From positions 7,721,984 to 7,785,983 of the forward strand of contig NC_092564.1 of assembly GCF_037975245.1 (NCBI RefSeq): a stretch of 64,000 nt of DNA, written 5' to 3'. Within the stretch, counting starts at the first letter, position 1. Every line of letters starts with the position of its first letter. The DNA comes from Apostichopus japonicus (lineage: Eukaryota; Echinodermata; Holothuroidea; Aspidochirotida; Stichopodidae). A program made the position numbers and the translations under genes. The notes under the pieces are model-generated. The model had not been told where the DNA came from. It did no database searches and saw nothing but the letters and a program-made list of their open reading frames with translations. Positions 25,606-51,200 of the stretch are shown here, piece by piece.

Positions 25606-25769
25606 CTATTGTGTGGTACAATTCTCTTGATCTTGTAAGTTCTCTATTTCGGCATCCAGCCAAGCAGCACTCTCTAGTGATGGTTGGTCCTTTCTTACAG
25701 GCTTTTCAGATACATTCGCATTCCTTACCCGTTTGGCTGGTGACTGGTGTACGGCAGGACTATTGTTAT
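25606..25769 (-). CDS. CENPE: CENP-E exon 34, terminal exon with CaaX box
   Basis: The acceptor CTTACATTATGCAG ends at 25770. The 164 bp complete an Asp codon and add 53 codons plus TAG (25606-25608). The sequence is basic then acidic ([20 protein letters not shown] ... ENLQDQEN) and ends Cys-Thr-Thr-Gln. A C-terminal Gln favours farnesyltransferase recognition. Human CENP-E also ends in a Cys-x-Thr-Gln CaaX box and is farnesylated, so this ending independently supports the phase-derived exon choice. Confidence 0.85.
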
Positions 25770-28700
25770 CTGCATAATGTAAGAAAAAGATACTGGAGTC
25801 ATCCCTAAATATAAAACCTCTAGTGTCGATTCCTTTAAGATCCCAAGCCTCGCAATACTGACTATCTACTGGCTAAATGGCAGTGGATTTTACTGTTTGC
25901 TGGTAGATAAAACACAACTAGACCATTTTGCTGCAAGTGCAAATTAATTTGGCTTTTGTATCAACTTCAAGGAAAAATGCATGTGGGAATTTGGTTTAAC
26001 CATTAGATATTTTATGCACTGAGATATTTTAGTAAGTGGTTACAATCCTGAGATTCAAGGCCAGAGAAATAAACACACCTTGACTACAGAAAAGGTTCTG
26101 TATCCTGTACCAATGCTACAAACTTCTTCATTTTTTATCTTGCCCAAACTTTTGGAATCACCTTTCCAATTAGCCCCTGCCGCTTGATGACAATAACGAC
26201 TTCTTCCCAGATTGTTATGCAAAGCAGTTTAATATGCATCAAGGTATATTTGCTACAACAGTCTTGCAGACCTCAGCTAATTATTCATATTTTATTTTGG
26301 AAACATGACAGACCTTCTTGAGCTATTAAAACATCATCTGTTGTGATATGATCCCAAACTGAACAACACCCATTGTGATAGTGTATTTTTGGAAAATGTT
26401 ATCTTAAAAAGACTTCCCTCTTTGTCGTAATTAAAACACAATTTTTGTTATTTTTATGGAAATGCGAAAAAGGCCACACCACATTCAACGAATGAAAGAA
26501 ATGTAAAGAAACAAAGTAACATACAAATTGGATTGTGTTTACTTCATCAAACTTGTGATATGACTGACCTTTAAGGGGTTTTGAGGTAGTAGGGGGGGCA
26601 TCTAGCTTTCTCTTGCCGTGGATGAACTTGCTATATTCTCCCTTCCAGTATTCCTTCTTCTCCTTCATCTCTTCATATTTAGACCTTTGGGTGAGGAAAT
26701 GATAGCTTCAGTTAGAAATTCACAAACTGCCATTTACATGCATTGGTGAGTGAAAGAGGAGTGGGAGGGTGGGTTATCATGTAGGTATCTCATTGCCTTA
26801 TGGTACTCTGAATATTAAGATATGTATTAGCTATGATTAGTCGGTTCCTTAAAGCATTGTTTGTCGCCTACTATTATCATAATTATGCTATGAATTCTGA
26901 ACGGCAATTCTCATAGATTGGGTCGATGTAAGTAGTCTTGGAGGTGAATGGTGGTGGGAGGGGGAGGAGTGAGGGAGGGGGTAAACTAAGGTGGAAGGAG
27001 TGAGAGTGGAGAACAAACCTACGTTCATAGGCAAGATAACATACTAATGTCCGAGTATCAAAACAGATAAATATGTGCTACTTTTTAACAGTTTTCTTAC
27101 ATCAATTAAAACTAGTTTCTGATCCTTACCGTTCTGTTTTGTAAAGTTCCGAGACTTTCTTGAGTTTTTTCTCCACTACGATGTTTTCCTTTTCTAGATG
27201 ATAGTTATGGGATTTGAGATGAAGCACAGCCACTGATGCTATGACTCCGGAACCACAGCTATTGACTGTCAGGAAAGCATACATTTATAAAAGAAGTTAT
27301 CAAAACCATACCACTGATTGAAAGTGGATGCTCTGAAAACAGAGAAATATCTTAACGTTAAGCCAATGCAACACTGTTGGACACTAGTCAATTTGACCGC
27401 TGTTATGTGGAAAATTGTCGACAGTTGGCAGTATGAGAGTGACTGATCAAGATTCTTTCCCATTTGTTTTTAAGTCTTGTCAGTTTTAGTAAGGAAACTC
27501 AAACATGCAGAGTTTTCCCACTTGCATTCAGCAGTGTTCAGCGGGTCATGGCTAAAATTGCCCAGTTGCAAACAAATTTAACCGATCATAAAGAAATAAT
27601 TTTGCATGTCACCTACACTAGCCCTGCTTGTTTACAGAAAATGGCCATTTTTTTGTGCTCATAAGTTGGTCAGTTTGCAGCTTTTTTTTGTAAAACTTGG
27701 AAACTGGTTCTTGAAGACTATCCTAATCTAGATCTGGACAGTTGAGTCGGGTCAGGTTCAGTCTAGCAGTGTGCTTGCATGACTTAACAGAGGGCGGTAT
27801 ACTGCCAAACAAAGTTTCTTGAAGGATATGATTCTCGTTATCTCTTGAACACGACATTTTTTCTCTTCAAAAAATATTCATAAGATGTTACATAACGAAA
27901 AGGCTTAGTGTTTATCCTCAGAATATTTCTTCCAGAGAAAATTGGAATGGATTTTCGTTAGCCTCTCCACAAATTTACTAAGAGAGAACTCAACATAACG
28001 ATCCTGACTCACCCGATGGTCCTGACATATCGTTCATCATTTCGTTGTACTGTTGTAGCTGACGTTTGTGGGATTTCCGTTCAGCTCCTAACTCGTCAAC
28101 CCTAAAGGAAGAGGAACAAGAGAACAAAACTAATTATGTTGCTAATAAAACGCTGGACCTCACAAAGAGTTCCGACGCTATATAGTATCAAGCCTAGAAT
28201 TTCAACAAGTTTAGGCACTTGCTTGATAATGCCAGTACAATCAAACTTTTATTTATAATAATTATATATTATATTTAATATAGAATTCGCACTTGCATAT
28301 CCTTGAATTTATACAAAAGCATATAAATAATATTGCGCCGACATAATTTTTTTTTTTTCTACAGACAAATGGTGAAATCCACTGGTATTTAGACAGTAAA
28401 TAGCCCACAATTCAGTAAATAGCCCACATTTCAAATTAAATTGTGACTATCGTTCTTACAGTGTCACAAGGTCTTCTTTCTTTAAGGTCTTTGGATCAGG
28501 AATATCAGTCACGGTCTGGAGGGAAAATGAACAAAAAATAGTCACAAATTTAATACCTTGATTACAAATAATTATATAAAGTTGATAAAACGATGATACT
28601 TTTGACATTTTTTAATCAAGAAACTTACACTATTAGTGGTTGTAATATCAGTTAGACTGTTCCATACACAATGTTCATATCTCTGTGCTGAGTCCCAAGG

Positions 28701-31700
28701 TAACATGACGTAACATTCAAAACATGGCTCTATTTGTCAGTCGTTCTAGCAACAAGTTCAAAGGTAATTTGTGCCCGACATATATGCATCTTCCATCTCT
28801 GAAACTTCTTATGTGTAGAAATGTACATTAAGAAAGCTGAATTTTTCTTGAAATTTCTCAAATTTCAGGTACAGTATACCCACACTCCCCCCCCCCCCCA
28901 ACCAACCCACCTTATTCCCAAACTCAAGATACATCTTGAGGAAAGAATGATGCAACTTACATCAAAGGATGCCGATCCTTCCATGGTTTCACTACAGATG
29001 CTACCCTGTGATGATGGTACACGACTCTTCTCCAATGTCGTTAGTTTAGACTGTGAGTGTAAAAAAAAACCCAAGATGTACCACATTATGGTCAGTAACA
29101 GACATTTACAAAACTCGGGCAGTAAAGGAGTTAGCATAGCAACTTCCACTGAGGTGTGAGGAAATGGATAAAAGAGAGAATGCAAACGATTCTTAACTAT
29201 TAATCTTTTAACTATGTTGAGCTTCCTACTTGTGAGCTGTTATAGGGCTTTTAGAGTACATCTAGGAGTAAGAGCAATGCATGCAAATGGACAGATACAA
29301 TTTTGGACAGTCACAAATCAGATACAACTTTTGGGAAATCGCAATCAATATTGATAATTAAGTCTGGTTATAGTTTTAACATGTGTAAACATGCAGGTCA
29401 TTCCATACGGGACCCCAGTGTCACAATCTGCTGGGTCGTCTTACCTCAACAAAGGGGCAGTTTTTGGAAAGCCATTTAAGTAACTAAAACAAAAGTATAC
29501 ATGTTTACCCATTCAAACTCAACTATTCAGCTTAAACTCATTTCAGTGGTGTACAACATGTGAAATCTGTCATTTCTGTTCATAAATATGCAGATATGAA
29601 CTTATATCAAACAAATAGTTTCTGTTTCCATGTTCTCCCTTGATTTGTACAAGATTGATACAGACAGTTCAAACAAAGAGCTTAGCTTCTACAAAACTGT
29701 ATCAATAGTGTTAACTTTCTACTTAATTGAAGTCTCTTGCCAAAGAATCCTGTAGGGCAGGCAGTGTTTGATCTTCTCTATTCAACTATTCTCACATGTA
29801 AGGTACTTTAACAAGCTCCATCAATAAGATGGGTTATTATTATTTTTTTTAATTTATTTATTTCAACTTTATTTTAAGAGGGTAGCTCGTTTAGCAATAG
29901 CTAATCTTCCACGAGGCCCTCTGATAAGACATATAATAATATAAAAAGTATGAAAGTTTACATTAATAATGCTTAATAAAATAGTTTAAAAAAAATATAT
30001 ATATTTTTTTTAAAAAGACATATAATAAAAAATAGTTTTTAAAAGACATATCATAATATAAAAAGTATGAAAATTTACGAAGTCATAAATACATTAATAA
30101 TGCTTAATAAAATAGTTTTTAAAAAAATATTTAAAAACGTGTACAGAGTAAAGAAAATTAAGAAATTTGGTAAAAATAAAAGTAACCAGTTAAAATTATG
30201 GGGGATTCTCCCCCCCCCCCCCCAATCCTGATTAGCACATCACACTCACCTGTAATTCCTTGTTGATTCTCTTGGTTTCTGAATGAAGTCGCTTCTCCTC
30301 TATAAGACTTTGATTCAGTCTTTTAAGAGCGGCTGAATCATCCTTCTCTTCTGGTCTTGTGGTTGATTTCATCAATTTGGAAGAGGCTCTCTACAGGACA
30401 ATGGAGAAAAAGGGGAAAAAAAAGTACTGTTGTTTAAAAAATTCGAAATCTGCAACTACTGGTCGAGTCACTGAGATGATCTGATATGAGAATACAGTCC
30501 TTGCTTAAACTGTTGTGCAAACTGAGCTAAACAATGTCAAGAAAACAAACAAACTCAAGTAACTAATGAACGAACTATGAACTATGAACTCAACTATGAA
30601 CTATGAACTCAACTATGAACTCAACTATGAACTAATGAACTCAAAACAAACTCAAGTAACTAATGAAAACATGATTTTAGGAAAGCATTTCAATCCTCTC
30701 ACCACCCATTCCCCCTTCCTTTTCCCCCACCCCCTTCCTTCCACTCCTCTCAAACATCTCCTTACATAGATGCTCTTCTTTCACCTTAGTCAATGCTTTA
30801 ATGTTACATCCTCACATAATTTCAAAGCATTCTTAGTTTAGGTTTACCTCATCTTCCAACTTTGCCAGCAGTGATTCGTTCTTCAGTTTTTCTTCCTTCA
30901 ATAGTTTTCCAGCAATTTCTTGTTCCCTGACAGCAACCTTGTACTTTTTATTAGCAGTTTTACTAATGTCCATCAGCCTTTTTACCTTTGATAAAGCTTG
31001 TTCTTCAAAGCACTTCAATTTTTCCTGAAAAATGAAATGAAAATAAATTATAACAGAAACAATTCTGCTGGTAACAGACATCTGTATCTGGTTTAAGGCA
31101 ACATTTTGTGCTTGATCAACAATTTGACCTAACGTTCTGTCAGTCAGACTATATCTCAAAATAACATTGCAATTGATCGAATTAGGACACCATCTTAGAT
31201 TTGTTTTCAAAAACAAAAGTTAACAAGTGAGTTATTAACAAATTTAATTCATATCTCAACATTCCTTTGTACAAACACTTTGTCATATCGCTATTCTAAA
31301 CTTTTTCGACAGTTACATTTTTGTAAATGAAAGTTGACTAGTCACAATGACCTACATGGAGTCAGGACACAGATTTCAAGTCTCAAAATGGCATCAAAAT
31401 ATTGATCAAATATTCAACGCCAAAACCTTTTTCCTTGCTCAATTTCTGCTTTCTATTCACCAACATTAATGCAACAAAAACTATAATTTTGATACTATAC
31501 ACTTAACAAACACTGTTTCCATGGCAACATAATTTCCCTAAACTCAACTGACATTGACTAAAATTGACTAAAAGTAGATAATTCCAAAAGTTCTTAATGG
31601 CTCCTACAATTAAAAGGAATCCAGACCTTGTCGTAGTCTGTAGAATTTAAAAGATTTTGATTTCTCTGTCAGGCACCTCCAACAAATTTAGGGGCAAGTA

Positions 31701-34700
31701 AGCACATAAATACACAAAGAGGTAAATTGCAGTTAATTTTGTACTATGGCAACATTGTGGCTTCTATTTTCATTAATGCTCATCAGTGCTGACCCAAACT
31801 TTTAGCTAGCTTAAACTGCTAACAATATTCGTAAGTATTATTCCCAAGGTCTTGACCCTTCATATTATACCCAGGTATCGGGAAGTGTAAAACATAGAAA
31901 TAACTGATTCAGTACAAGGAAAATGCTTTGAAGCTTGATAGAAATTGGTTTTTGAAAGTAGAAGCATGTGTGACCATTTTGTCTTTACTATCTAACAAGT
32001 TTGGAGCTCAGCTAACACTGAATGAACACCTTTGCATGTATGGGTATGGACTTACTTCAAGTATAAAAAATTTGTTTTAATCATCAATTTGTATTTCATC
32101 TTACCTCCAATTTAATATTTCTATCAGATAATTCCTGTTTCTCTTCCTGAAGTGATTTCACCTGCACACCATCCACCCGGTTCTGAAAATAAAACAGACA
32201 TTTTACATAAATAAACGGAAGAAGAACAAACCTTCGTACCATTCCATCATCATATTTTGTCAAAAAGATCAAGATTGGTGAGAAGAGATCCCCTTCTTCC
32301 AAATATAATATGCACAGAAAGAAAATCTTTCAAGACTCTCTCTCCGGTATTCTCTGCATCTTTTAATTTACCAGCTACAGCATCTGTCTAAAATCATGCT
32401 CACCTTCATAGCTAAAGTTTCCTCCTGAAATTCCTCCTCTACAACTTTATTGGTTTCATCCAATGAAGCTTGTATGTCATGACTAATTACACAGTATGCA
32501 AGGTGGAGTCCAGGGATAGGGTGTGGAAACGAGATGGGGGGAGGGGGATGGGGCTTCGGTTTTAATAGTGATCACCATCAACTCGAGTTGTCTATACCTC
32601 ATTTACTAGAGCACTTGACTTGTTAACTTGCAGTCACTGGTTTCAGATACCATTTTAAGCCCATAATATAAAAATAATAAATACATAATATTTATGAAAA
32701 CTATAAATATTCTCTCAATATTTCATAAAATTTCAACATCAAGATATACTCATATATTATTTATTCTCTTTCTACAACAATTTATGTCAATTTATGATCA
32801 GCTTCACCTCATTTTGCATTTCGGTCATCAGTTTCTCATTCTTGTTTCGTTCTTCTGTCAATAGTGTTTCGGCTTTCTCCTGTTCCTTGATGGCCTTCTG
32901 GTATTTTTTATTAGCAGTCTGACAACTCGTCATTAACGCCTTCATCTTAGCGATAGCTTCTTCCTCGTAGCTCTTCAATTTTTGCTGCAAATAAAAGCGG
33001 AGGAGAAATTAATTGCCATCGGTAATCTATTCTCCGGAAAAAAAATTGTCAAGGTGACATTCCCAATAATAATGAAGTCTTCTATAAACTCAAGTATGCT
33101 GTTCAGGTGGCAAAATATCTAGAAAAAATTAAGAAACATCCAGAATTTTCTCTCGAGGCGTTAAAACAACATTTAATTGTTGTCTTACCATTTATTAGAC
33201 TCTCAAAATTTCCTGTTTCCTACTTTCCTCATACAGGACCATTTAATATCCTGGGATTTAATGCCTTTCCTAGACAAGTAATTGAGAATACAGCTTTGCG
33301 TACTTTGTATGTACACATAAGTTACCGAAAAAAAGGGAAGAAAATGAAAGTTGGAGAAAACAAAAGATACCTGTAATTCTTCATTGAGTTTCTTTGACTG
33401 TGAATGGAGTTTCTTCTCCTCATCTAAACTTTGAGTCAATGTTTGAAGCTCGTTAGTATCATTCTTGTCATCTTGTCTGGTTTCTAATTGCATCTCTCTC
33501 AATGAGGCTCTCTGTTTTACGAAAAGTGTTGAAAAATAACCAAACAAGTAAGTACAGTTCACCTATTAAGGTGTACAGTATTTGTCCCGAAATATGCTAG
33601 GAAGTCAACTAATGGTTGCTAATGCTCAGATTTTAACAAGTGCTTAATTGTCACCCGAAAAAGCTTACTTAATTAAGACAATTAAATGTCTAGTTGAACT
33701 CTTTTCTATGTCTGGAGGATCATAGTCTCTCGGATTTGGTGGTTTAATAGGAACACGGGGGGGGGGGGGGGGGGTTGTGTCCCCAAATCTCAAAATTTGA
33801 CTTTTTATCTCAAAATTTGGAAATTTTGACAAGTTCTAGTGATTTGAAGCCTGCTAAAATCTGGGGTCAATACAGAGGACCTTTAAAACATGATTCGCTT
33901 TCTCCACTCCGAGCTCAAAAGCTCTTTGACACTTATTTTAACATGTACATCAATTCAGGTGGACAGCATACGTGATGGTGACAGGCCAATGTGAAAGTAG
34001 TATGGGTTTTGCACATGCTTTTACTTGTACAACCAGGTATGTAGTCCGAGTATGTGAAGAAAGACTAGCATTTCAGCCTTCAGAGAGTGCAGTTCAGTAC
34101 ACTCTTCTGGATCTGTACTCCAGCAACAATATTTTTCACAAAGAAATAAAGATTATTTTCTACAATTATATCTATGTCTGGAGTTCCTCATTATCTGCTG
34201 TTCTACCTATTTAATGATTGAGCCCTGAAATAATTGAATAATAAGAATCTGTGACAGTAGACAGTTTTTCACAGTTCTATGTGTACCTTCATCATAATAT
34301 GTGACAGCAGACAGTTTGTCAAATCGTTCTATGCCTACCTACATCAGGATCTGTGACAGTATGCAGCTTGTCACATGAGTGTCTGTGACATACATTCTGC
34401 TCATTCTCATAAGTATTTCTAGAGTACAAAATTCCAAGATCTGTAAATTTACCTCATCCTCTAATTCTGCCTGCAGTTTTTCATTCTTTTCTTTCTCTTC
34501 CCTTAAAAGGTTCTCGGTTGTTTCTCGTTCCTTGAGGGCTTCTTCGTACTTTACATTAGCAGAATTACAATCCTCCATTAAAAGATTCATCTTTGATAAC
34601 ACAGTTTCTTTTCCAGTCTTCAGTGTTTGCTGTAAAATTTGGAAGACATATAGAATAATCAATATTTATCTCCGTATTACATTCCTTTCCTTTCCTTATT

Positions 34701-37700
34701 TGCTTCAAATCAAATCAAATCAAATGGTCATCCATCTTGAAACCAAATCTGTAATGTTTCAGATTAATAATACTGTAACCATGGTGATAGAACTGTCACA
34801 GACTGTTATTTTCAACATACACGATTTGCACAGAATACCACAACTACAGCTTAAAGGCATTGAAGACTAGCCCCAACCGCGTGCCGCGCTCTGAAAAAGT
34901 TTACTTTCCGTTGCTTGCAAGTGAAGTTTTCTTCTTGACGCTACAAAATGCAGACAGTAATGAAACGTGATACCTTTGTTATCTTTTATCTAGACCTGAG
35001 ATGTCCATCGCTGCTATGTACACTGTGTTGTGGGTATTGACAGTAGCTGTACGTATTGACATTACACTAGTCTAATTACCAAGGGTAGCAAGCTGTGTGT
35101 GTATTTTCTCGGATCCATGGTGGTGTCTAACACTTCTGTTACACCTCATACGAAACTAGGTCAGATTACCGGCATGAGACATTTCTTTGTGCGTGAGTCT
35201 TCACACCCTTTAATAAGCATTCAAATAGATGTAGACAAGCTTTCTAACAGTTCCCAGAAAATTCAAATATTTCTCTCTGCTTCTAAACTGGAGATCTTTT
35301 TTGTTCATTGATTTTTGAAGCGGTAGAAAAGGGTGAACTGGTGGGAAAGGGGGGAGGAGATGAGGGGTAAGTACCATAACATAATCCATTAAAAAGAGAC
35401 ACACACCTCTAATTCCTCCTTTTCCTTCAGTGTCTCGAGATGTCTTTCCCTCTCTGTTTCATATTCTTTGTTGATTTGCTCCAAATATTGCACGGCTTGA
35501 TCTAATTTCTCCTGTAGTTCGTTTTCTCGGCTGGTCTCCTCTTGTTGCTTTGCTTGCCTCTGTGGTGAAATAAAAAAATCAATATAAAACATTTATGAAA
35601 ATATTCCTGTAATCTACATTGTACCATAATCTGAGATGTGACTTAAATGGACCAACATATAACAGAACCTTTATATTTCTACTTCATTTCTTTGTACGTT
35701 GTATAAAAATTGGTTTGCTAACAAAAGCTTATGTTATGCAGCTTTTTACGACCGTCCTGGTTAAATAATAGCATAAAAAGAAAAGAGGCTTTGCTGAAAA
35801 TTGTTCACATTTCAAAAACTAGACAATCATTCTTAATTTGGAATAATAATATGATGTGCTAAGAATAAAAACTCAAACAGTGGGTTATTTATGAGGGTCC
35901 ATCTGTCATAAGAATAAGGACTCAAACAGTCAGATAATTATTAGGGTCCATCTGTGCTAAGAATAAGGACTCAAACAGTCAGTTAATTATTAGGGTCCAT
36001 CTGTACTAAGAATAAACACTCAAACAGTCAGTTAAATATTAGGGTCCATCTGTGATAAGAATAAGGACTCAAACAGTCAGTTAATTATTAGGGTCCATCT
36101 GTGCTAAGAATAAGGACTCAAACAGTCAGTTTATTATTAGGGTCCATCTGTATTAAGAATAAGGACTCAAACAGTCAGTTTATTATTAGGGTCCATCTGT
36201 CATAAGAATAAGGACTCAAACAGTCAGTTAATTATTAGGGTCCATCTATGACTTACCTGGAGTTCCTCAATCTCTGCAGTTGCATTCTGCAATTGTTGTT
36301 TCTGATCTTCTAACTCCTCCATCAGTTTAGCGGACGCCGTTTCTGCCTCTTCCTGGAGTCTTATCATCTCGTCGTACTCCTTATTCAGCTGTTCGTATTC
36401 TTTCTCGGATTTATCAAGTTTCTCTTGAAGCTCCTTGCCTGTTGCTTCATACAATTCTACCTCCTGAATTTTCTCCTAGTATTAAGAATGACATTTTGTT
36501 ATTCTTTGAATAAAAATTTGTTTCAATAAAAATTTGGAAAATCATCCAAAAGAATTTTCAACCTTTGCCTTTTTTATTTCAAAGTTAGCAATAATCAACT
36601 AGTTGCACAGACAACTTATTTTGCCTTTTTGTGGGGTGTCAATTATAATTTTCACAAAGTCACATGCTACAGAGACATAAAGTATGTTCCAATAATAGAA
36701 TACCTAAACATAGGTCATCGATCCAAATATTTACCTGTAGTTGATCATTCAACATGGCTGCCTCCTTCTCCAATTTACTTGATTTCTCTTCATAATGACT
36801 AATTAGATCTTGTCTTTCTTTTGTCTCCTGAAAGAGATGATAAAAATAAAACATTAAACTACAAAATGTCAGAGGTGTAGATGAGATCTAACAACACAAA
36901 TATATTTAGTTTATTTCTTCTCTTTTTTTCAAAGTTTTGTTTAATCATAGAGATAAAATTTCTAACTCAAATGTGACAAATCATTAGAAAAAATTAAAAC
37001 CTGAAAATGGTTTAGAAAACTGCTATACAGTGATATCTGGAAAATAAACAAAACTTGAAATGTGTTACTAAACATGTTACAGACGTTAAACATTATTGTC
37101 CATCACTAACACAAACTAATAATGCAAATGTCAGTTCATTCATTAAGATAACTATGAACAATATTAATAATCAAGAAACTAAAATTAAAAGGAAGGGGGG
37201 GGGTGAAGAGGGGAAAGAAACAGTTCTTTAAGTGGTTAATTGTAAAAAGAAGTACATGATTGTATATTAATGTAGTAATTTCAAACATCTTAAAAGTGAC
37301 TTCTACCTGTTCCAAGGACTCCTTTTCCCTTTGTAAGGACGCAATCGTATCAGTAAACTATGACAAAGAAAAAGGTAATAGTAACCATTAATATTAACAT
37401 TAACAAATTGAAAGTTTCAGTGAGGAACTGATGCTGACTGGAGACTACTAGATGCCCTATTGACCATGATAATTAAACAACTCCTTTAATATTCTATACA
37501 TAATTCTCACTAATTCAGTTAATATCCCACACAAAAATGAGGGCTTTCAGATCCAATTAACATTTCACAGGGGTTCTCAATAGCCAGTCCGTGAGCCAGT
37601 TTTTGCCTACGAAAGATTTCATCCTGGCTCCGGAGAAGAGAAACCCGCACCACAATCTTGATTGAGTTAGCCAGGTATGCGAGCCTTTTAGCTTGAGCCC

Positions 37701-40700
37701 TCTACCGGCCTACCATGCACATTGCTCAATCTAGTACAATGAGAGTTTGGGTCACTCTGGCCATTTGTTCCAAACAATTGTTTTTCTCTGGCCCTTCAAA
37801 TGACAATACCTCTGTTGTTTGGGCTATATAAAATAAAGCTATCATCTTCACATCTCAATAACTCTAAAATTTAAATCTAAAAGATGATACAAAAAAAGGA
37901 CGATAAAAAAAACGGCTGGCAAATGAAATCAGCTTACAAAGTCAAATTCATCTTCAGATGTCTTTTGGTTCTGCTCCTTGTTTGCCATCTGCTGTTCGAA
38001 GTTCTCCTCCAGGGTTGTCAGTTTCTGTTTGGCTTCCTCAAGAGCTTCCTGTGTCTTTACGAGTTCCTCTTGAGCATCTATTGACTAAGATGGGGAAGAG
38101 ACAGGAGAAGAAACAAAATTAATGGGGGATTGGAGTCTCACGTTCAAACAACAGAACATAATACATGAATTAAATATAAAAGGCAAGTGAGAGCTCAAAT
38201 TTTATCCTTAGTTTCTTTTAAAGCTGAAATGATTACTGAAAGTTGGAAATTGCACAAGTGTAGCAAGCCATGAGTCAAGGGTTGGAAAAGTAGCTGAATT
38301 TCCCGCCAAAACTATTGCTATCACCAGCAAATTGCATGATATTGTTTGTAAAGCAGACAACCGAGCAGTCCTGATACATTTCAATTGAAAGGAAACTTGA
38401 ACACTTTCCTTCTGGTGTTATATGTTGTTTTTTTTCCTCTTTTATAATTTTTTTCAACCTTCTTTGAATTATTTTCATTATGTTTTTATTTCTATATATT
38501 ATTTTTCAGAATTTTTTTTTTCTAGTGTGGTAAATCTCCCTCCAACCTGGTTCTGTTGGTAACCTAGGTTTTCTACCCTGCCAAGAGTTTTTTTAATTAT
38601 AGTCCTGTATAATCAAAATCACTTTAGAATTGAACAGCACTGACAATTGTTAACAAGCCCCATGAATCATGATTCTTGAAGCTTCAGTCAAAAAAATCTT
38701 GTTGCAAATTTTTTACTGTTAAATTTTTAATTTTGACTTTTAAGGACTCAAGTAACATTTGTTACTCACACAGCTAATGCTTTCTTCAAGGTCCTCCTTA
38801 AGCTGTTTTCTCTCTGCTGTAAGTCTACAGAACATAAGAAGGAAATAGAATACGACAAAACATCAGTTAAGAAGAAAAATGAAAACATAGCCTTGTTGAT
38901 TCCTAAATGCAACTCTGACCAAGAAATTATGACCAATACGTTGATATTAAATTATATCAAACTTTAAACCATTGTTAACGATTGATATAATTGTTGAAAA
39001 CAAATTCCAAGAATTTTTCCCATGATCAAATATAAACACATCAGGCATTCATACTTAAAACAAGTGGTCATATTTTCAAAACACTTGATCCATGTGACCA
39101 GATCAGTTTCGTAGACAAACTTTGGCTATTATTCTTATTTTCTCTTCTAATGTATAATGCAGTGTCTTGCTTTAAATATTACGCTTCAATTGCTTACTTT
39201 TGTCTTAACATATGTATTTTGCAAAGATTTGGAGTATAACTTTCTCTTATATTATACGAATTTTGAAATATCTCAGTTCTCAACAAAAATTGAGAAAACA
39301 AATGCACACTGCATATGACATCATTACCTGTAGTGAAAGAAAAGCAATTAATTGATCTGCATATCCTTCAAAGCTGAAAGAATTATTCTCTCAAAATGAA
39401 TAAAAAATTTAACCTTGAAACATTTTTCTTTGATATTTCCCAGTAACTATTCTGTATTCAGACGTTTCATAATTAGAAAGCCCTGCCCATAAAAGCAAGC
39501 CTGTCAGGAGATAATATCTGTTGTCTTCTGAGAAAAACTAACAACCACCAAAAGAAGAAAACAAGAATAGAAAACAAAACAACAATGAAACTGCTACAGC
39601 AATAAACAAGTCTCTTTATAGTAGCTTTAAAATATGAAAACACTTACTCTTTAATCTGTTTCTCAAGTTGATCCATCGCATTTTCCATTTCTCCGTGAAC
39701 ATTACCGGCCGATCTCAAGGAATCACACTCTTCTTTAGCCAGCTCCAGCTCTAATATTTTACTTTCCAGGTCAAGTCTAAGTTCATCGATAGATCCCTCG
39801 AGGGTAGCCTTGATGGTCTCTCTCTCATTTGCAGCCTCTTCTAACTTCTCCTCTGTTGTTTTCAATTCGCTCTCCATCTTCATCAGTTTCTCTTCCAGTG
39901 TCGTGATCTGTTCCTCTCCTCTCATCTTAACATCCTCTAATTCCTTCTTCTGATGCTCTAACTCTTTCACCTGTTCCTGGTAATCGGCAGCTGCCTTCGT
40001 CAATGATTCCATCTCCTCATCTGCCCTGTCGTCGTTACCTTTCTCTTGCACGATACCTTTCAGTTCCTCAAGGCAGTCTTCAAATTCCTGCTTTTGAATT
40101 TCGGATGCTTCTTGCAATGAGGTAAGGTTTGCATGAGCCGTCTGTAACTCCTCTTGTAGTTTCATCTTAGTGACTGTAAGCTCTTCACTTTCATTTCTCA
40201 GCCTGATGACTTCATCTTCAAGTACATTTTCCTGTTCGCTGACAATCTCATTTTCTCTCTTTCGGTCTTCTTCCCCATTGGAAAGACCACCAGTGAGAGC
40301 TTTCACTTGGTTCAGTTCATCTTTCAACTTCTCTACCTCAACTAAATATTGATCAATTTCTGAACGGGCAGACTCTAACTCCTGTTCTTTTATCGTCAGC
40401 TTTGCCTCGGCATCCGTGAGATCGTTGTTCAAATCCTTGAAAAGTGCAACCTCTTCTTGAAGGACTTCCAGCTCACAACGAGATTCCTCTTCCTTCATCT
40501 TAGCATCCTCTAGTTCCTCCTCCACCCGAGCTAGTTTTGACTTTGCTTCGGCGAGGTCGTCGTTTGTTTTCCTCAGTGTTACTATTTCTTCCCGTAGTTG
40601 CTCCAGTTCTGCCTGGTACCTCTCAGTCTCCCCTCTCAGTCTCTCTGCATCTTCATTCTTGCTAACTTCAGCTGTCACATCCTCCTCATCTTGTTTCCCT

Positions 40701-43700
40701 CTCACCAGTTCCTCTCTCACATTTCTCAGTTCTAGCTCTAACTGTTCGCATCTACTGCTTGATTCTAGAGTCCTTGCACTGTCAGCTTCCAATAGAGTGA
40801 TCTGTCCTTGCAATCTATCAATTTCCTCCCTGTATCTCTCGACCTCCTCCAACAGTTTATGACTCTCCATCGCACCACTCTCGCTATCTTGTCTTACCTC
40901 TACTGCTTTTTCCATCCCTGCCAACTGAGCTTCTAATTCCTCTTCTCTCCTCTCATAGATATCTCTCTGTTCCTCCATCTGTGCCTTGGAAGCCTTTAGC
41001 TCTTCGTCAATCTCCTCCCAAGACTGTTTTGATGCCGTAGATGCAATCTCCATCTCTTCTACCAGACCCTGAAGTCGGTCAATCTCCGACTGCAGACGTT
41101 CTGATCTCTCTTGACCAGTCACCCGTTCTGCTTCCAGCAACTCGGTCAATTCCCTCATCTTCACTTCTGTTTCCTCTTCTTGATTGCTAGCTTTACAATC
41201 TCTCAGAGATTCAAGTTCTGCTCTGGTTGAAGATAATTCTGCTTCCATCCTCCCTAACTCACTCCTTGCTTCATCCAAATCTGATGCTTCTGTTTTTAAG
41301 TTCAGTGCTTCTTCTCGATACCCTGCGAGTTCTCCTCTTAGTTTCTCCATCTCCTCCTCCCTGTTTCTATCTTCATCTTTTTGTGCCTGGATTTCTGCCA
41401 TCAATTCTGTTAGTTTTTCCTCCATCTCAGTCCTTTGACTCTCGAGGGCCTTCTTCCAGGTATCAGCATCTCCCTGTAGTTTTTGGACATTCAGCTCCAT
41501 TGACTCCATTTGTGTCTTGGATGTTGCAATCTCCTGTTCCAACTTCTCTTTAGCAATTCTCTCTTCTGCAAACTCCGCTTGTATTTTGACTTTCTCTTCC
41601 ACATGAGACTCTAAGTCTTTCTTCAGGTTCTCGATCTTGGCTTCTAGTTCCCCCACTTTCTCCGCCTCTGATGATCTTAGCTTTTCCTCTGCCCTTCTCT
41701 GCTCCTCAGCTAATGCTTTCACTGCCTCTAGTTCAGTCTGTGATGCTGTAAATTTCTCTTCCAGCTCTGCAAATGAAATTTTTGATTTCTCAATAACGTC
41801 TTCCAGTTCTCTCTTGGAATTTGTCAACTGAGATAACTCCTCTAGTGTCCTTTCTTCTTTCTCCCGGAGTAACACTGTCTCTGCCATCAATTCTTTCAAT
41901 TTGTTTTCGTTTTCACTCCATTCTGAGGCTGAATCACTCTGGTTGTTCTGTTCATCGTAGGATAGCTGGAGTTGAGAGGTTAGTTCTTTCACTCGCCTCT
42001 CCTGTTTTTCTTTCTCCATGTTATGGAGTATCTCCATCTCAGCTTTAGACTGCTCGGCCGCTTCCACTTCTCCTCTCATGGATGCCACCTCACTTTCCAT
42101 GGCTGAAACTCTGGCCAACAACTCAGCCTGTCAAAATAAACGCATATGAATAATCATGATCACGATATCCTACAAAAAAGTTCCTACAACAATCTAAGGT
42201 CACTGCACTACTTGACTGGCATGACCGTAACCTTGGGCATTGTGATCTTCTGAGCCATTCTAGTAGGTTCTCAAAAACTTCTTTAATGCTCCTTCATGAA
42301 AAACAAAACTTCGCATAAATTGTGTAAAGTCAATGCTCTCTGGAGAGTAGTGATATTTTGGGACACAACAAAGGTGTGAGTGAAATTCATGATAAATATA
42401 TTAAAGTTACAAACAGAAATTATTGCAAGATGGAAATAATGATATTTTGCTCTCAAGGAATCTTTTTTTTTCATATCTGATTCATGAGCTGATAAGTATG
42501 GCTATTTCACTGTCATCACACTTATCCGTGTTTGAAGTTACTTCCAAATACATCAGCATTAAAGTCCCTTTTTAAGAGATATAAATATAATGAAAGGTAA
42601 AAACTGTTACTAATCACATTATCCCTCAATTTGATGGTATTTCTTTACTATTTATAAAAACAGACAACAACAGGTTTTTGGCCAAATAACTCAGCAAGAT
42701 ACTTGGATAGATTCAGACAATCGATCCTGATGTATAGACTCATTTATAGACAATTAATTAATCCTGATGTATAGACTCATGTATAGACAATTGATCCTGA
42801 TGAATAGACTCATGTATAGACAATTGATCCTGATGTATAGACTCATGGTTATACATGTATAGACTCATGTATAGATAATTGATCCTGATGTGTAGACTCA
42901 TGGTTATACATGTATTAGACTCATGTATAGATAATTGATCCTGATGTGTAGACTCATGTATAGACAATTGATCCTGATGTATAGACTCATTTATAGACAA
43001 TTAATTAATCCTGATGTATAGACTCATGTATAGACAATTGATCCTGATGAATAGACTCATGTATAGACAATTGATCCTGATGTATAGACTCATGGTTATA
43101 CATGTATAGACTCATGTATAGATAATTGATCCTGATGTGTAGACTCATGGTTATACATGTATTAGACTCATGTATAGATAATTGATCCTGATGTGTAGAC
43201 TCATGTATAGACAATTGATCCTGATGAATAGACTCATGTATAGACAATTGATCCTGATGTATAGACTCATGGTTATACATGTATAGACTCATGTATAGAT
43301 AATTGATCCTGATATGTAGACTCATGGTTATACATGTATAGACTCATGTATAGATAATTGATCCTGATGGGTAGACTCATGGTTATACATGTATTAGACT
43401 CATGTATAGATAATTGATCCTGATGTGTAGACTCATGTATAGACTCATGTATAGACAATTGATCCTGATGTATCTAGACTCATGTATAGAGCATTGATCC
43501 TGATGTATAGACTCATGCATAGACAATTGATCCTGATGTATAGACTCATGTATAGACTCATGCATAGACAATTGATCCTGATGTATCTAGACTCATGTTA
43601 AGGTGCAGTTCAAATGTCAACATTACAAAAGTTTGCCTTTGAAGGAGAAGATCCTCTTGAGATTGAATTGTCAGGCCTTCCAACCTTTACCTTTACAAAA

Positions 43701-46700
43701 AAACACAGAAAGTTGCTCAAGTCAACCAATGTGACAATTCGTGCAAGTAACCAAAGAATTATTTTTTTAAATGACACACAACTTAATATGAAAGAAATCA
43801 ATGACGTGTTTTGAAAGAATAAAAACATGTGTGTAAGTTTTCTGAAATATACAGGAAGCACTTCGAAATCAGGGAGAATTTGAGAAAAGAATTGATGTAT
43901 TAAGTAAGATTGGATCTTTGGACATCAATAAAGAGACAAATAGCTGCATTACCTCTTCCTTCTTCCACATATTCTTTTCGTCAGCTTCAAATAATTTCAA
44001 TTCCTCAGCTTCTTCTATAACTCTCTTCAAATTTTCCTTTTCTTGCGACATCTCTGTTTTATCGGATTCCCTAAGAAACGTAAGAAATAACAAACAGGAA
44101 TTATGAATTGAAAGGTGGCAGAAGTTGAAATTACCTAAAATTATCTGAACTTTTTTAGCAAAATCCACATTCTCATAGCATTCTGTATATCAAAAGATAT
44201 GAGTTTACATTCAAAAACACGAACAGATCAATCCCCACATTCCTTGCTAACCACTTATTTTCTTCTTACTATTGTGTAATTGAAAAGCAACATAAATCAT
44301 TGTTTATTCATTGCATTAAATTTAAGCCATGTCAGATGTCTTGATTTACCAAACTTCAACGTTGGCAGTCAACATGCAACATGTTGTTGAGTTATGAATA
44401 TTTCAACATGGCTGTTGACATACATGTCCATACAGGAAGACTTTAGACTGACTTTTAGTCTTGAATTGTTGAAATCCAAGAAAAAAAAGAAACAAATTGA
44501 GGATGCTACGTTTCTATGGCGATTTGAGTTTTTAAGGTTTACACCTTTAAAATACACAAAATGTCTGGAATGCTCCTTTAAGGCTTAAACTGACGATAAC
44601 ACAGCTCTTCGGTGTAGTCCTTAACGTTAACATTAAATCATTGTTCTATGAAGTCGAATATACTAACATTCTGCTACATTATCAAAGTCAATTTTGTGTC
44701 TTAATGTCATGTTTTGAGGTACTGCTAGTTCAACATCAACATTTAGCTGTCTAGACATGAATTATGACTTACAACTCTGAGATGATTTGATTCAGATTCA
44801 AGAGTTCAACATTCGTTGTCTTCATCTGTTCTTCCATCTTCTCCTTTTCGCTCATCAATCCTTCGCAGATGGTGAACATCTCTTGAAATTGCTCTTCCTT
44901 GTCCTTTAGCCAAGAAATAAAAAAAGTGCAAATGTCCTTTAGATACAGTGCTTCAAGTAACCTGTAGTAAATGCCATATTGTACTTACTTTAATAAATAT
45001 CCCATACTAGATGGTGGTGACATGTCAGAATTTGCTTTTCTCTTCTCAAAAGATGAAAACTTGGAGAAAATAAAACTACTGTGATAATGTGGTAGCAAGC
45101 TACTTAAAATAAGTGGTATTTAAGCTACTTGCAATGTGCAAACTTTAAGAACTAACGTTTAATTCCTCTAGGTTGCTGGTTTGAGTGGCTACGTGAGTAT
45201 GATCCGCCCATCTCACACCCTTCTGCCTCTTGAGGACAGGTGAAGACTGGACGTTGTTGAAAGCTTCATCGCTGAAAGACACACCTAGAGAAAATAAATA
45301 AAAACCAAGATACAATAGAGAGATTGTTAAATAGTTTCTAGAAGTCAACAGATCACATTGCAGTCAGGCACTTTTTGTCTACACCATCTACGCACCATCA
45401 AATCAGTGAACTACGACTATTTCTACCGATGTTGAGGCATTGAAGTTTGGGTATAAACAACAATATTATGAAGTCATGCAAACCCCTAGGTGTTTAACAT
45501 TTTTCCATCGGTGAAGCCCCTACAGGCAATGAAGACATAAGACATCGATTTCATGCTATCAGCACCACCGAGGTTGAGATACAGGTAAGGAAAGTTTGGG
45601 CTTTCTTTGACAAAGACAGTTACTCTCAGACTTACAGAGAAATAAACGACCTTGATTTTCCTTTTAACTTACCCTCTTTGGAGTCATTTAAGGTATTCAA
45701 ACCCACTGGTGAGCTACTGGGTAGACTCTGAACTTCTTCAGCTGAACCGTCTGACAGTCTTTGGAAAACATTCCTCTTGGGTAAGAAATCATCAGTGAGA
45801 GACGTGTTCATCATTCTTCTCTTCAGAGCCCCCGGACACCAAGTTAATCGTCGTTGCTGATAACACCAAAGGAACCAAGAAAAGTCAGGTTTGTCTTACT
45901 ATTAAATGTATCGGGGAGGGTTGCAGTGTTGAAATAAAATCCAGTTGAGACTACATCAATTAGTATGGATTTGTATCAAGGGCAATGATTACATTCGGTG
46001 TGTTTCCAACGTCTAGTGTTTCAGCACCTCAAACACCTAGATTTAAAAATCTGCCACTGCTAACGACAGCGAGATATGTCACAACATGTCAAAATGTAGT
46101 TCACTAGAATTTAATTTTTTCAACTGGTATTTTACATGTGACTACTACTACTATGAAAAGTTGTCTGGGTGACAAAACATTAAGAACCAAATTATTACTT
46201 CACTCATTAACCCTCTAGGAGCCCTTATTTTGGGTCACTGTCACATTTGCTTGACTTGTTAAAACTTTTCAACCAACCAACAAAAAGAATACTTCAAACA
46301 TCTGTGGTGACACCTCCGCAACAAACTAGCAAAACGTTGTTGCTCTCCTGTGACCAAGTGGTGTACTTTGTAAACATAAACCAGAGCTGTTTGACATGAA
46401 AACAATACACCCTGAATATTTGCAGTAAGAATTAAACAGTCCATATATCATCTCACATTTATAAAACTTGGATAATGGTTGTCAGGTATCATCTGGTGAT
46501 TAAAGCTGAAAGCTTTAGCATAATTGCTGTAAAACTTGCTGCATTTTCATGTCAAACCACCTCCTTGTAGCGTTTTGTATTGTGGAGACATGATTTTTTT
46601 TAGATTTGGTGTTATTTTGTGATTGCATCTGGCAATAGCAAAGTGAATGTCATCAGGGAAATTTAGCTGAATTTTTTTTTTCTTCCTGTATTATTTCAAT

Positions 46701-48170
46701 CATGTATCCACAGAGGAAAATAATATTTCTACCAAAAAAATAGTTGCCTTTTGATGATATTAAACTTACAGAGAACAATAAAAGCTAAGTCAAATATTTG
46801 TATGAACAACAATGTTATAATAGCCTAAGTATAGTGTTTTGAATGATATTTACACTGATGACATCACAAGATCCAACTCCTGTGATCCAATTATTCCTAG
46901 GGTAAGAGAAGGTTTAGCCAATCAAACTAGGTTACATTCAATCATACCATATCTTGAGTTAGTGACAAGATATTGAGATGGGGGTTTTCAACTATCAGTG
47001 TGGAATGTCTATATATTTCTATTCAATATAAATTTCACATTGTCTGTCACCAGATCATCCCATAAATTAAGACCAGAACAGTAAAAAAAAGAAATGGTGG
47101 GTAAAAAAGCGATTCGGAGATTTCACTAACCTTCCTCTTCTCAGATATTGAAACCTCCTGGCCTTTAGGCTTTGAAACCAGGATCATGCTTTCCAACTGT
47201 TGAATCTTTCTCTGTTGGAGGAGCTTTTCTTCTTCAAGTTTGGCAATTCTTTCTTGTTCTTGCACTGTGGGTTGCACCTGTTGTCCTTGTTGATACTAGG
47301 GAGGAAGGAATATAAAAAACAAATATCAGCTCAGATGGGCAATTTGGAATGTTGTTACCAGGGTGACCATTTCCTGTGATAATATATGCAAAAATGACCA
47401 GAGATGACAATAGTGTGTTGTTTCATTGTTGCTTGTGTGCAAACTAAGAATGAAAGGGGTTGGCAAAAGTGAAAATAAACGATCATAAACTTCCAGCGAT
47501 ACGAGGCTGACTGAATCTGTGGTAAAGCGAATAAATGTGAGAATCTGCAAATTAGTTGTAATTATGTATTGATTCCCTCTCTAATTTTGGAAGTCAGAGA
47601 GAGGACCATTAAATTTGAGTCTGGATTTTAGAGACACCTTTATATTTTTCATCAACAACTACAATTGTTGCATTACAAAAGAAAAAAAAAACAAAAAAAG
47701 GAAAACACATTCAGAAAAGGTGAAAAATAAAAGGTTGCTTACAAATTCCAGCTGTGCCTTCAGAGAAGTTATTTCTTTCTGACATCTTTGGATTTGTGCC
47801 TCACCCGTTAGAATCTCATTTATCTCTGGTTTGTTGGTAATTGTTTTTGCTCGACTGGCAAACTGTGGAAATGAGGAAAGGCAAAAGCGTGAAAGTATAT
47901 TTCAGAGTTTCCTTTAAGCCATTTGTTATTTGTCTTCTAAACTTTAAGGAGTTATATATATATATATATAGATATATATATAAATGAAAATCGTAATGAG
48001 TTGGAAAATCAAGAACAGTGAAAAAACTTTCAGCCTCCACCGGGATTCGAACCACGGGCCTTCCGCTCTGTACGCGGACACCCTAACCACTAGGCTATGG
48101 ACGCTGATTGTATGTCCAGAGGTTCGAAACCGGTAAGGAAGGTCGTAATTCCACTGTAGGCGTTTGTCAC

Positions 48171-48213
<43 letters not shown>

Positions 48214-51200
48214 TACAATGTATATATATATATATATATATACATTTGTTGGTTTGTATTTTACCTGTAATGTAGATTCTGTCTGGTCCAGAGATGCTGG
48301 AGTAACGGTGCATACAACGGCTGTCTTAGCGTTACCACCCAGAGCAGACTGGAGGATTCTCGTCAGTTTGGAATCTCTGAAAGGGATAAACTCCGCACCT
48401 GCACTGAGCTTACTGATGACATTGCACAGACTAAAAAGTGAGCGGTTGATGTTCCCGGCTTCCTTAAGGCGTTGACCATGTGCCTTTGTATCATTTGCTC
48501 TTTCTGAACCAGCTAAATCAATAAGATTCTGCCAAAAAGAAATAATGGAATTTGGGGGAAATTAATTATTTGAAGGAAGTAGGTGACAAATATGACATAA
48601 AGTGTTCTTCATTTAAAAAGAAAAATACTGAATCTCTATTTGACCAAGCTCTTTCCCCTCCCTCCCTCTTCCTCCCACACCACACTTCAAAAATCATTCC
48701 ATTTTTCATGAGGTTCCACATTCTTTGTTTAATTTCATGACCTTTTCCAGACGTGGAATTTTTCCATGACTTTCGCATGTTTCCATGACTGTGAACCACA
48801 GAGGGAATGATTCAAAACTTGGTTTACCTAACAGTTAATACATTTCTGATATTTTATGTTCATAGCAGGTGTTTTAAGTTCCTGTTGATTATAACTGTAC
48901 CAGAGTTAAAATCATAAAGATAGGTTATTTACCAACTCAGAACAGTTCACTGCTAAATCCAGAGTTTCGTCATCTCTGCGCTCACGCGATTCAATTATCT
49001 GTAAAATGAAGCAAAAAAGATTCAAAATGGTTACAACTAGTCCTTCAGTTAACAACAAAGTTTACATTATCAAAGCCTACTATACAACCAGTAGAGTAAG
49101 ATTTTTAAATTTATTGGGATATTTTTTTTTTCTGGGTTAGCATGTAGTACTTTGCAGTTTACTGTGACACGATTCACAATTCACCCCCCACTAATCTTTG
49201 TGAGTTAATATTACAGCAACATCAGTCATTATTGTCATGGTTTTTATTGTATCAGACAACCCATACATGGGTCGGATATCACGGTTCACAATTCACCCCC
49301 ATCAATATTTGTGAGTAAATATTACAGCAACATCAGTCATTATTGTTATGGTTTTTATTGTTTCAGACAACACATATATGGGTCGGATTTTCTATAGATT
49401 TCCTATAATAGCCAAAGAATGAACAAAAGGGCAGACCAATTGAAAGTCTCACTAGCCTATACCTGCATTGAGCGATATGCATGATAGGTCCATAGTGAAC
49501 TCTCAGGTCCAAGGCCTTAAGGGTCCACTTACCTGAATAGTAATGTAGGCCACTTTCTTGTGTGGGTTAGAATTAGATTGAAATCTTTGGTGGGTCACCT
49601 ATTGAAATTTTCCTGATGACAGGTTAGCCTTAAGTTATATGCCATATTAAATCTTGTTGAGAGTAATGAATTAGAAAGTATATAATAAATCCACAAAATT
49701 TCTATAAAGCTTGCCAATATTCATTAGAGACTATTTTTTTTCATGCCCTTATGGGCCTTATGTCAAATGCATTATAGTGTAACATTGAAAGTTAACAAAT
49801 GTTGTAATATTGAGTTTGAATTCAATGCTATATAATTGTGCTCTAGTAATGTATCAAATAGTAAAGAGTCAAAAATGTTTTTTAAGAAGAATATTTCTTT
49901 GTCACTTGGCACTCCCTATCAATGAATTGCTAAGGTTGCCAAAGAAAACTTGTAATGTGGGTATCATGACCATCAAAGCATATCAAGTTCTGGATAACAT
50001 TTAATAAACACACTTAATGAAAACTTACCACTTTGAATATGGTGTGAGAGCGGCTACTGTGTTCGTTCATGTTGGTTTGGCCAATGTGTCGATGCTCTGA
50101 AGAAAGAAAAAAACGTTCATGGCTGTTGGCTTCATGTGACAAGAAGCAGAGTAGAATTATTTAAAGCAGTAACAAGCAAAAAAATTATGATTTGGTAAAA
50201 ATCATTTAATGGAAAGGACTGTATTGCAAACAAACATTATCACGGCAAAAACTTACGACAAAACCTCCCTCTCCTATGACAAACTTTAGACAGTTAAGAA
50301 CAAAGGCTAGAAATCTTTATGAAATATAGTTTTCATTCTCTCACCATTTCCTTTTCTCATTAGATCTAGGACTTCGTCCGCATCAGACACGAACGCTTCA
50401 TGTAAATTACTCACATAAACTCTCCTCTGTAAAAGATAAGAAGAAATAATGACCAAACTGAACACATACCATCCAATAGAATGCAACACTGCCAGCAACA
50501 TTGCACATAAAACACAGTAATATGGCAACAGTTAACATTATAGCCACGATATAGCACAGATACAATTTTGCAATCTTGATTTTACAAACAGTCAGTCACC
50601 ATTATAAGGTAAAGTATCTACCATATTACCAAAAAGTGTTGAAATATTAACAAGTAGTTCAGGTTTTCATTAAATACAAATCATATCGTATTCCATCAGA
50701 TGAAAAAGGTTGCCAAAACCAGTTGCTTCAGTATTTTATCTGACTTAGTTAAAAAGAAAAGGAGATAACTGTAATGTGATTGTAATTATTGTGATACTGT
50801 AAAGGTTCCTCAAGCTTTGACATGTGTAATGTCATGAAAATGTACAACATAATTACCAGCAGGTGGGATAAAGTAATTAAAAGTAAACCATATTTTATTG
50901 CTACAGACCTGTTTGTTCTCTCGGATGATAAGCTGTTGCTTCTCTTCGTTCAGGAGGTCATTAATGATTTCATTGTAAATTTCCATGTAACTGACCCTGA
51001 AGAGGAATTCTCTCTCAGGGGTCTGGGAGAAAGAAGGAGATTTGAAGTAAAAGGTTGTAATTATTACAATAAAAGTGAAATTAATAAAGCACCAATCCAG
51101 AATTTTTTTTTTCTTCTCAAGGCACTGTACAAACTAACAATATACAAAGCTAAACGTATGTGTAATATGGACATGGAACAGTCAAAACAAAGTGTAAAAA

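Follow-up and report, generated by a model that had tools for sequence, protein, structure and literature searches.

The CENP-E gene of the sea cucumber Apostichopus japonicus raises the question of how the stalk of a kinetochore motor changes its length. Some coiled-coil spacers keep their length while their sequence diverges, as described in a part of PMC5082667, and how long stalks change length is therefore a fair question. The gene lies in a stretch of 64,000 nucleotides (nt) of contig NC_092564.1 (positions 7,721,984 to 7,785,983 of the forward strand, assembly GCF_037975245.1), which is hereafter called the window and in which all positions are given. An earlier reading of these letters (the original prediction) had claimed that the rod of the motor grew by duplication of an intron-bounded pair of exons. 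Following up this claim, we concluded from gene structure and alignments that part of the CENP-E stalk very likely grew by ancient whole-exon duplication.

Descent of the repeated rod exons

The array comprises six exons, all in phase 0-0 and with AG/GT borders, that encode modules of 59 or 47 amino acids (aa) and one shorter segment; lengths are in base pairs (bp).

25606..54616, minus strand: CENP-E gene, 34 modelled exons, 2151 aa, with the motor at the 5' end and CTTQ (CaaX box) at the 3' end
34453..34629, minus strand: exon 23 (E23), 59-aa module copy 1, 177 bp, phase 0-0, AG/GT borders, 29/59 aa shared with E25 and 29/59 with E27
33371..33511, minus strand: exon 24 (E24), 47-aa module copy 1, 141 bp, phase 0-0, 24/47 aa and 98/141 nt shared with E28
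32808..32984, minus strand: exon 25 (E25), 59-aa module copy 2, 177 bp, phase 0-0, 30/59 aa and 119/177 nt shared with E27
32105..32182, minus strand: exon 26 (E26), 26 aa, between copies 2 and 3, 78 bp, phase 0-0
30848..31024, minus strand: exon 27 (E27), 59-aa module copy 3, 177 bp, phase 0-0, 29/59 aa shared with E23 and 30/59 with E25
30250..30390, minus strand: exon 28 (E28), 47-aa module copy 2, 141 bp, phase 0-0, 24/47 aa shared with E24

The exon lengths (three of 177 bp and two of 141 bp) and the order 59-47-59-(26 aa)-59-47 were exactly as predicted, and the exon numbers 23 to 28 agreed with those of our 34-exon model. The 59-aa copies are spaced by 106 and then by 85 residues. In ungapped alignment, identity was 29/59 aa and 113/177 nt for E23/E25, 29/59 aa and 116/177 nt for E23/E27, 30/59 aa and 119/177 nt for E25/E27, and 24/47 aa and 98/141 nt for E24/E28, which corresponds to a nucleotide identity of 64-70% across these four focal pairs; the by-eye counts made earlier for E25/E27 and E24/E28 proved exact. 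Twenty-two positions were invariant across the three 59-aa copies and 24 across the two 47-aa copies. The end-to-end alignments were gapless, and the paralogous exons matched in length, phase, and border residues.

Long coils are biased in composition, and the likeness might therefore reflect convergence of coiled-coil segments with similar composition. Shuffling within heptad positions did raise the null, with maxima of 84-96 compared with 45-64 for plain shuffles (20,000 per pair), and the large rod exon of the same gene (exon 16), compared with itself in overlapping windows, peaked at 107 at an offset of 45 residues. However, the BLOSUM62 ungapped scores of 154 (E23/E25), 130 (E23/E27), 155 (E25/E27), and 120 (E24/E28) lay above every shuffle and every rod window examined, including the top score of 85 among 180,901 non-overlapping pairs of 59-aa windows in a 719-aa part of the large exon. 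When 13 of the 34 exons (the large exon excluded) were compared in 78 pairs with 300 heptad shuffles each, the four focal pairs had z values of 11.3-13.0, and the next pair had 3.9. The original prediction had named a similarity no higher than that of composition-matched coils as telling against duplication; the similarity was found to be above such nulls.

Scans of longer sequence recovered the same exons. A repeat search on DNA independently found 30248-30392 matching 33369-33513 with 70% identity. For 59-aa windows at offsets of at least 59 in the 2151-aa protein, the top three offsets were 191, 106, and 85 (scores 163, 160, and 155), which are the exon spacings, and the fourth was 241, with a score of 85. 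With exons 20-29 joined, offsets 191, 106, and 85 scored 278, 193, and 179, whereas 100 heptad shuffles reached 104 at most.

The nucleotide sequences bear further on convergence. When the final 27 codons (or those of the shorter exon) were compared, the identity was 0.67-0.72 in the four pairs and at most 0.49 in the other 62 of the 66 exon pairs. The same codon was used at 21/29, 20/29, 20/30, and 18/24 of the conserved residues (E23/E25, E23/E27, E25/E27, and E24/E28), compared with 13.6, 12.2, 13.1, and 10.0 expected from codon usage (binomial P = 0.0048, 0.0031, 0.0094, and 0.0010; as the first three pairs have exons in common, their values are not independent). Reuse of the same codon above the usage expectation indicates descent and not convergence, and the exon borders are identical as well; convergence is thus exceedingly improbable. 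As judged from these alignments, the five exons are paralogous by descent.

The first and last pairs matched as a single block: among 106-aa windows, the highest score was 256 at offset 191 (E23-E24 against E27-E28), 184 at offset 106, and 89 at any other offset of at least 106. The identities of E23/E27 (49%) and E24/E28 (51%) are alike, as expected if one event copied both exons, and distances within the three 59-aa pairs are much the same and do not order the events. By the NG86 method, nonsynonymous divergence (dN) was 0.32-0.37 and synonymous divergence (dS) was 0.69-1.78, with dS greater than dN in each pair; YN00 gave a dN of 0.40 and a dS of 0.78 for E23/E27. Alignment of the introns has been lost, with matches of at most 27 bp among the seven introns compared (best E value 0.02). 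Because the introns are no longer alignable and dS has reached 0.69-1.78, the duplications are, on these measures, ancient. The breakpoints were most simply intronic, since both exon borders agree without gaps. The array very likely represents a genuine ancient tandem exon duplication whose unit was probably a pair.

The copies of E23, E25, and E28 were confined to the locus, unlike those of a dispersed repeat. In the genome search, E25 had three matches and E28 two, all within the CENP-E gene, and E23 had five, three in the gene and two at E values of 1.87 and 5.61; no copy was found elsewhere at E ≤ 1 for these three of the five exons in a search that scores the best candidates only and may miss weak copies. 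Within the window, neither protein nor DNA profiles found further module copies (best non-member E value 2.4). Matches of the modules to Pfam all fell under the curated cut-offs, and those to PDB had E values of 0.1-0.83. Several candidate relatives were rejected. A scan of viral contigs gave a single 23-residue match among 229 candidate stretches, which was taken as chance. Exon 22 was considered as an older 47-aa copy, and its match to E28 (score 48, z 3.9, C-terminally anchored p = 0.004) was not significant; among the 62 non-focal exon pairs, E22/E29 had a lower p value (0.0025). The likeness of exons 21 and 22 (ELQEKLD...NKEY) was weak (score 78, heptad-shuffle p = 0.004, z 3.7).

Heptad register and predicted fold of the modules

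The rod exons are coil-like by composition, and two modules were also folded in silico. Both spacings, 106 and 85 residues, equal 7n+1, because E26 is three heptads (21 residues) shorter than the 47-aa module; this regularity, which two spacings would show by chance 1 time in 7, is weak evidence. The best a/d register occupies the same internal frame in each 59-aa copy (11, 12, and 11 core residues), and the hydrophobic register of E25 is one residue off that of E23, as the 7n+1 spacing predicts. In coiled coils, a one-residue insertion in the heptad pattern leads to local deformation, according to the portion of PMC5082667 that treats it.

AlphaFold2 predicted the 59-aa module (E25 with two relatives) as one helix over residues 2-58, with a mean predicted local distance difference test score (pLDDT) of 95.0. 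The 47-aa module (E28 with E24) was predicted to be non-helical at residues 1-12 and helical at residues 13-46, with block pLDDT values of 66, 72, 97, 98, and 96. Within the low-confidence first 20 residues of the 47-aa modules lie the stretches TRPEEKDD (E28) and TRQDDKND (E24). Because the proline at residue 13 is present in E28 and not in E24 and the model was predicted for E28, E24 is less certain to have the break. The original prediction had estimated about 16 nm of fully helical coil per step, which is probably an overestimate given that residues 1-12 are predicted as non-helical. On these models, each step would be better viewed as helix-break-helix, in which the helices together span no more than about 13.8 nm (93 residues x 0.1485 nm). 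The CENP-E coil is discontinuous and about 230 nm long in the account given within PMC10630089, citing Kim et al. 2008.

Origin of the array and its alternatives

We consider it likely, with good confidence, that intron-bounded exons of the CENP-E rod underwent ancient tandem duplication, most simply as a pair of one 59-aa and one 47-aa exon. Unequal crossing-over within introns would be the probable route, and at least two events may have produced the order 59-47-59-x-59-47, in which x (26 aa) either replaced the middle 47-aa exon or is its unrecognizable remnant. All six exons start and stop in phase 0, and each unit would therefore insert in frame. In the simplest reading, all six are spliced together, and a full unit would lengthen the stalk by a helix of 59 residues and, after a short break, by another of about 34; this break may take up the one-residue heptad shift of each 106- or 85-residue step. 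We infer the duplication mechanism, the constitutive inclusion, the hinge role of the break, and any effect on motor reach.

The earlier interpretation held in part. Shared borders and phase, together with the block match of E23-E24 to E27-E28, support rod growth by duplication of intron-bounded exons. The uniform 106-aa step claimed with it did not hold, since the 59-aa copies lie at intervals of 106 and then 85 residues and a middle 47-aa partner is either absent or no longer recognizable. Exons 25-28 contribute at most 191 of the 2151 residues, and stepwise evolution of stalk length would be an extrapolation from this one genome.

Several points weigh against this interpretation as a whole. 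The age is only loosely bounded, because the dS values of 0.69 (E24/E28) and 0.78 (YN00, E23/E27) are not saturated. As the middle 47-aa partner is not demonstrable, one step or another may have copied only the 59-aa exon. Against E24 and E28, E26 had local scores of 25 and 22, with shuffle means of 25.6 and 23.0, and when it was anchored C-terminally without gaps, 2/26 and 3/26 residues agreed with the 47-aa modules. The phase symmetry is not special to the focal exons, because exons 18-29 are all phase 0-0 in the 34-exon model. The inclusion of all six exons is an assumption, and each AlphaFold model shows an isolated exon as a single chain, built from 3 and 2 sequences respectively, a setting in which frayed ends are expected.

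E26 was not recognizable as a member of either the 59-aa or the 47-aa family and had only its self-match in the genome search. E26 could be a shrunken middle 47-aa exon, and the array would then stem from a clean tripling of the 59-47 pair with three heptads lost from the middle copy, which would be compatible with the duplication proposed above. Its position between copies 2 and 3 fits, it carries a KSLQEEK run resembling the QSLxEEK of the 47-aa module, and it is shorter than that module by 21 residues, exactly three heptads, which leaves both spacings at 7n+1. Yet its local scores are no better than the shuffle means, the C-terminally anchored agreements are just those few, and the open stretch preceding E26 is also not significant; we regard this origin of E26 as possible and on balance doubtful. 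The reading of E26 as what is left of a split or dying middle 47-aa exon, to which its position invites, was not supported, with scores at the shuffle level, and neither was that of the open intronic stretch at 32404-32487 as part of such an exon (scores 27 and 23, p = 0.20-0.33). This coil-like stretch in intron 25 (minus strand) has a good donor, and no frame-keeping acceptor was seen by eye; it is possibly a dead exon.

A different outcome of the same duplications would be alternative use of the copies, either mutually exclusively or as in-frame cassettes, which would yield rod isoforms and not a constantly longer rod. The copies are homologous, equal in length and phase, and in tandem, and skipping any one of exons 18-29 would keep the reading frame. 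On the other hand, the 59-aa copies are not adjacent, with E24 and E26 between them, so that an exclusive choice would need whole groups of exons; introns 23-27 are ordinary (386-1080 bp, canonical borders); and one cited paper, in the part concerned, describes tandem exon duplication as common and mutually exclusive splicing of the copies as not. We therefore consider alternative use quite improbable and retain a constantly included, duplicated array as the preferred interpretation.

A further generalization, which we put forward as a speculation and think unlikely, is that CENP-E stalks grow in quantized 7n+1 exon modules, each with its own helix break, that can be added or removed while sparing the adjoining coil. 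If this were true, the kinetochore tether would vary among species in reach and flexibility according to module copy number. More modestly, the gene suggests that one likely route to a longer stalk is in-frame addition of whole exons, bringing a helix and perhaps a break together, and the defined modules (59, 47, and 106 residues) could be removed or added to probe whether CENP-E reach matters.

The gene, its other repeats, and known systems

The gene model was built from splice-site and codon scores and then completed by hand with frame-keeping candidate exons. The joined chain of 6456 nt has its sole stop at the end, and all 33 introns have GT donors and AG acceptors. Many outer exons, which are less secure than exons 20-29, were chosen by hand to keep the frame; since exons outside the focal stretch were partly selected in this way, the continuous open frame is in part a matter of construction. 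Two further exons of the model are referred to here.

25606..25769, minus strand: last model exon, encoding the C-terminal CTTQ (gene model)
39648-42127, minus strand: exon 16, large rod exon, 2480 bp (other model exons, 47-264 bp)

Against PDB, the 331-aa motor matched the CENP-E entries 1t5c and 6m4i with 363.5 and 361.2 bits, and its best match to another kinesin was 4hna (kinesin-1) with 277.5 bits; exon 9 alone gave 100.7 and 98.4 bits for CENP-E and 85.4 bits for another kinesin. In the part of PMC10630089 on the C-terminus, human CENP-E is described as ending in the CaaX box Cys-Lys-Thr-Gln, and a cysteine at position -4 is used as a criterion for orthologs. Because the motor is closest to CENP-E and the C-terminus is CTTQ, the sea cucumber gene is, by these two features, identified as CENP-E. 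It resembles known CENP-E (kinesin-7) in its motor domain, coil-like rod, and CaaX box. The farnesyl cysteine of human CENP-E is at residue 2698 (same partial source), whereas the model here, at 2151 aa, is shorter despite the duplication.

Other repeats were observed in the gene. The size of exon 16 stands out, as if introns had been lost there. At 40166-40981 on the minus strand, this exon resembles itself when displaced by 45 residues (227 residues compared, score 145, 46/227 identical), and 12 heptad-shuffled controls had maxima of 62-105; the self-match is probably a repeat of its own and possibly reflects a second, intron-free mode of rod growth. In the intron preceding it, dense short tandem repeats lie at 42715-43598, including two identical adjoining copies of 247 bp (42715-42961 and 42962-43208). 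The intron between exons 21 and 22 holds a tandem array with a 49-bp period (35806-36246) that extends up to the splice donor of exon 21 (exon edge 36257), and the intron preceding exon 8 holds, at 49185-49388, two direct repeats of 93 bp that are 91% identical and start 111 bp apart.

In tandem exon duplication, exons are copied in tandem, for example by unequal crossing-over in introns. The CENP-E array resembles this process in its homologous neighboring exons of equal length and phase, shared borders, and diverged introns; it differs in that the unit is probably an exon pair, that it lies in a kinetochore motor's stalk, and that it would probably add length and not yield an alternative isoform. 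The duplication process itself is ordinary, and the array represents a known mechanism in a new place; in the open-licence literature, we found no account of CENP-E exon duplication or of echinoderm CENP-E exons. The alternative exons of arthropod muscle myosin heavy chain are tandem duplicates. These mutually exclusive exons, as far as described in a part of PMC2257972, are related exons within one gene, as are the exons here. In contrast, the gene structure of CENP-E gives no sign of exclusion, and its copies are interleaved with other exons. Skip residues give the myosin rod repeats of 7n+1 residues, which move the heptad register by one position. The two CENP-E spacings are also of 7n+1 length with a one-residue shift; in CENP-E, unlike in the myosin rod, this shift may fall at a place where a break in the helix is predicted.

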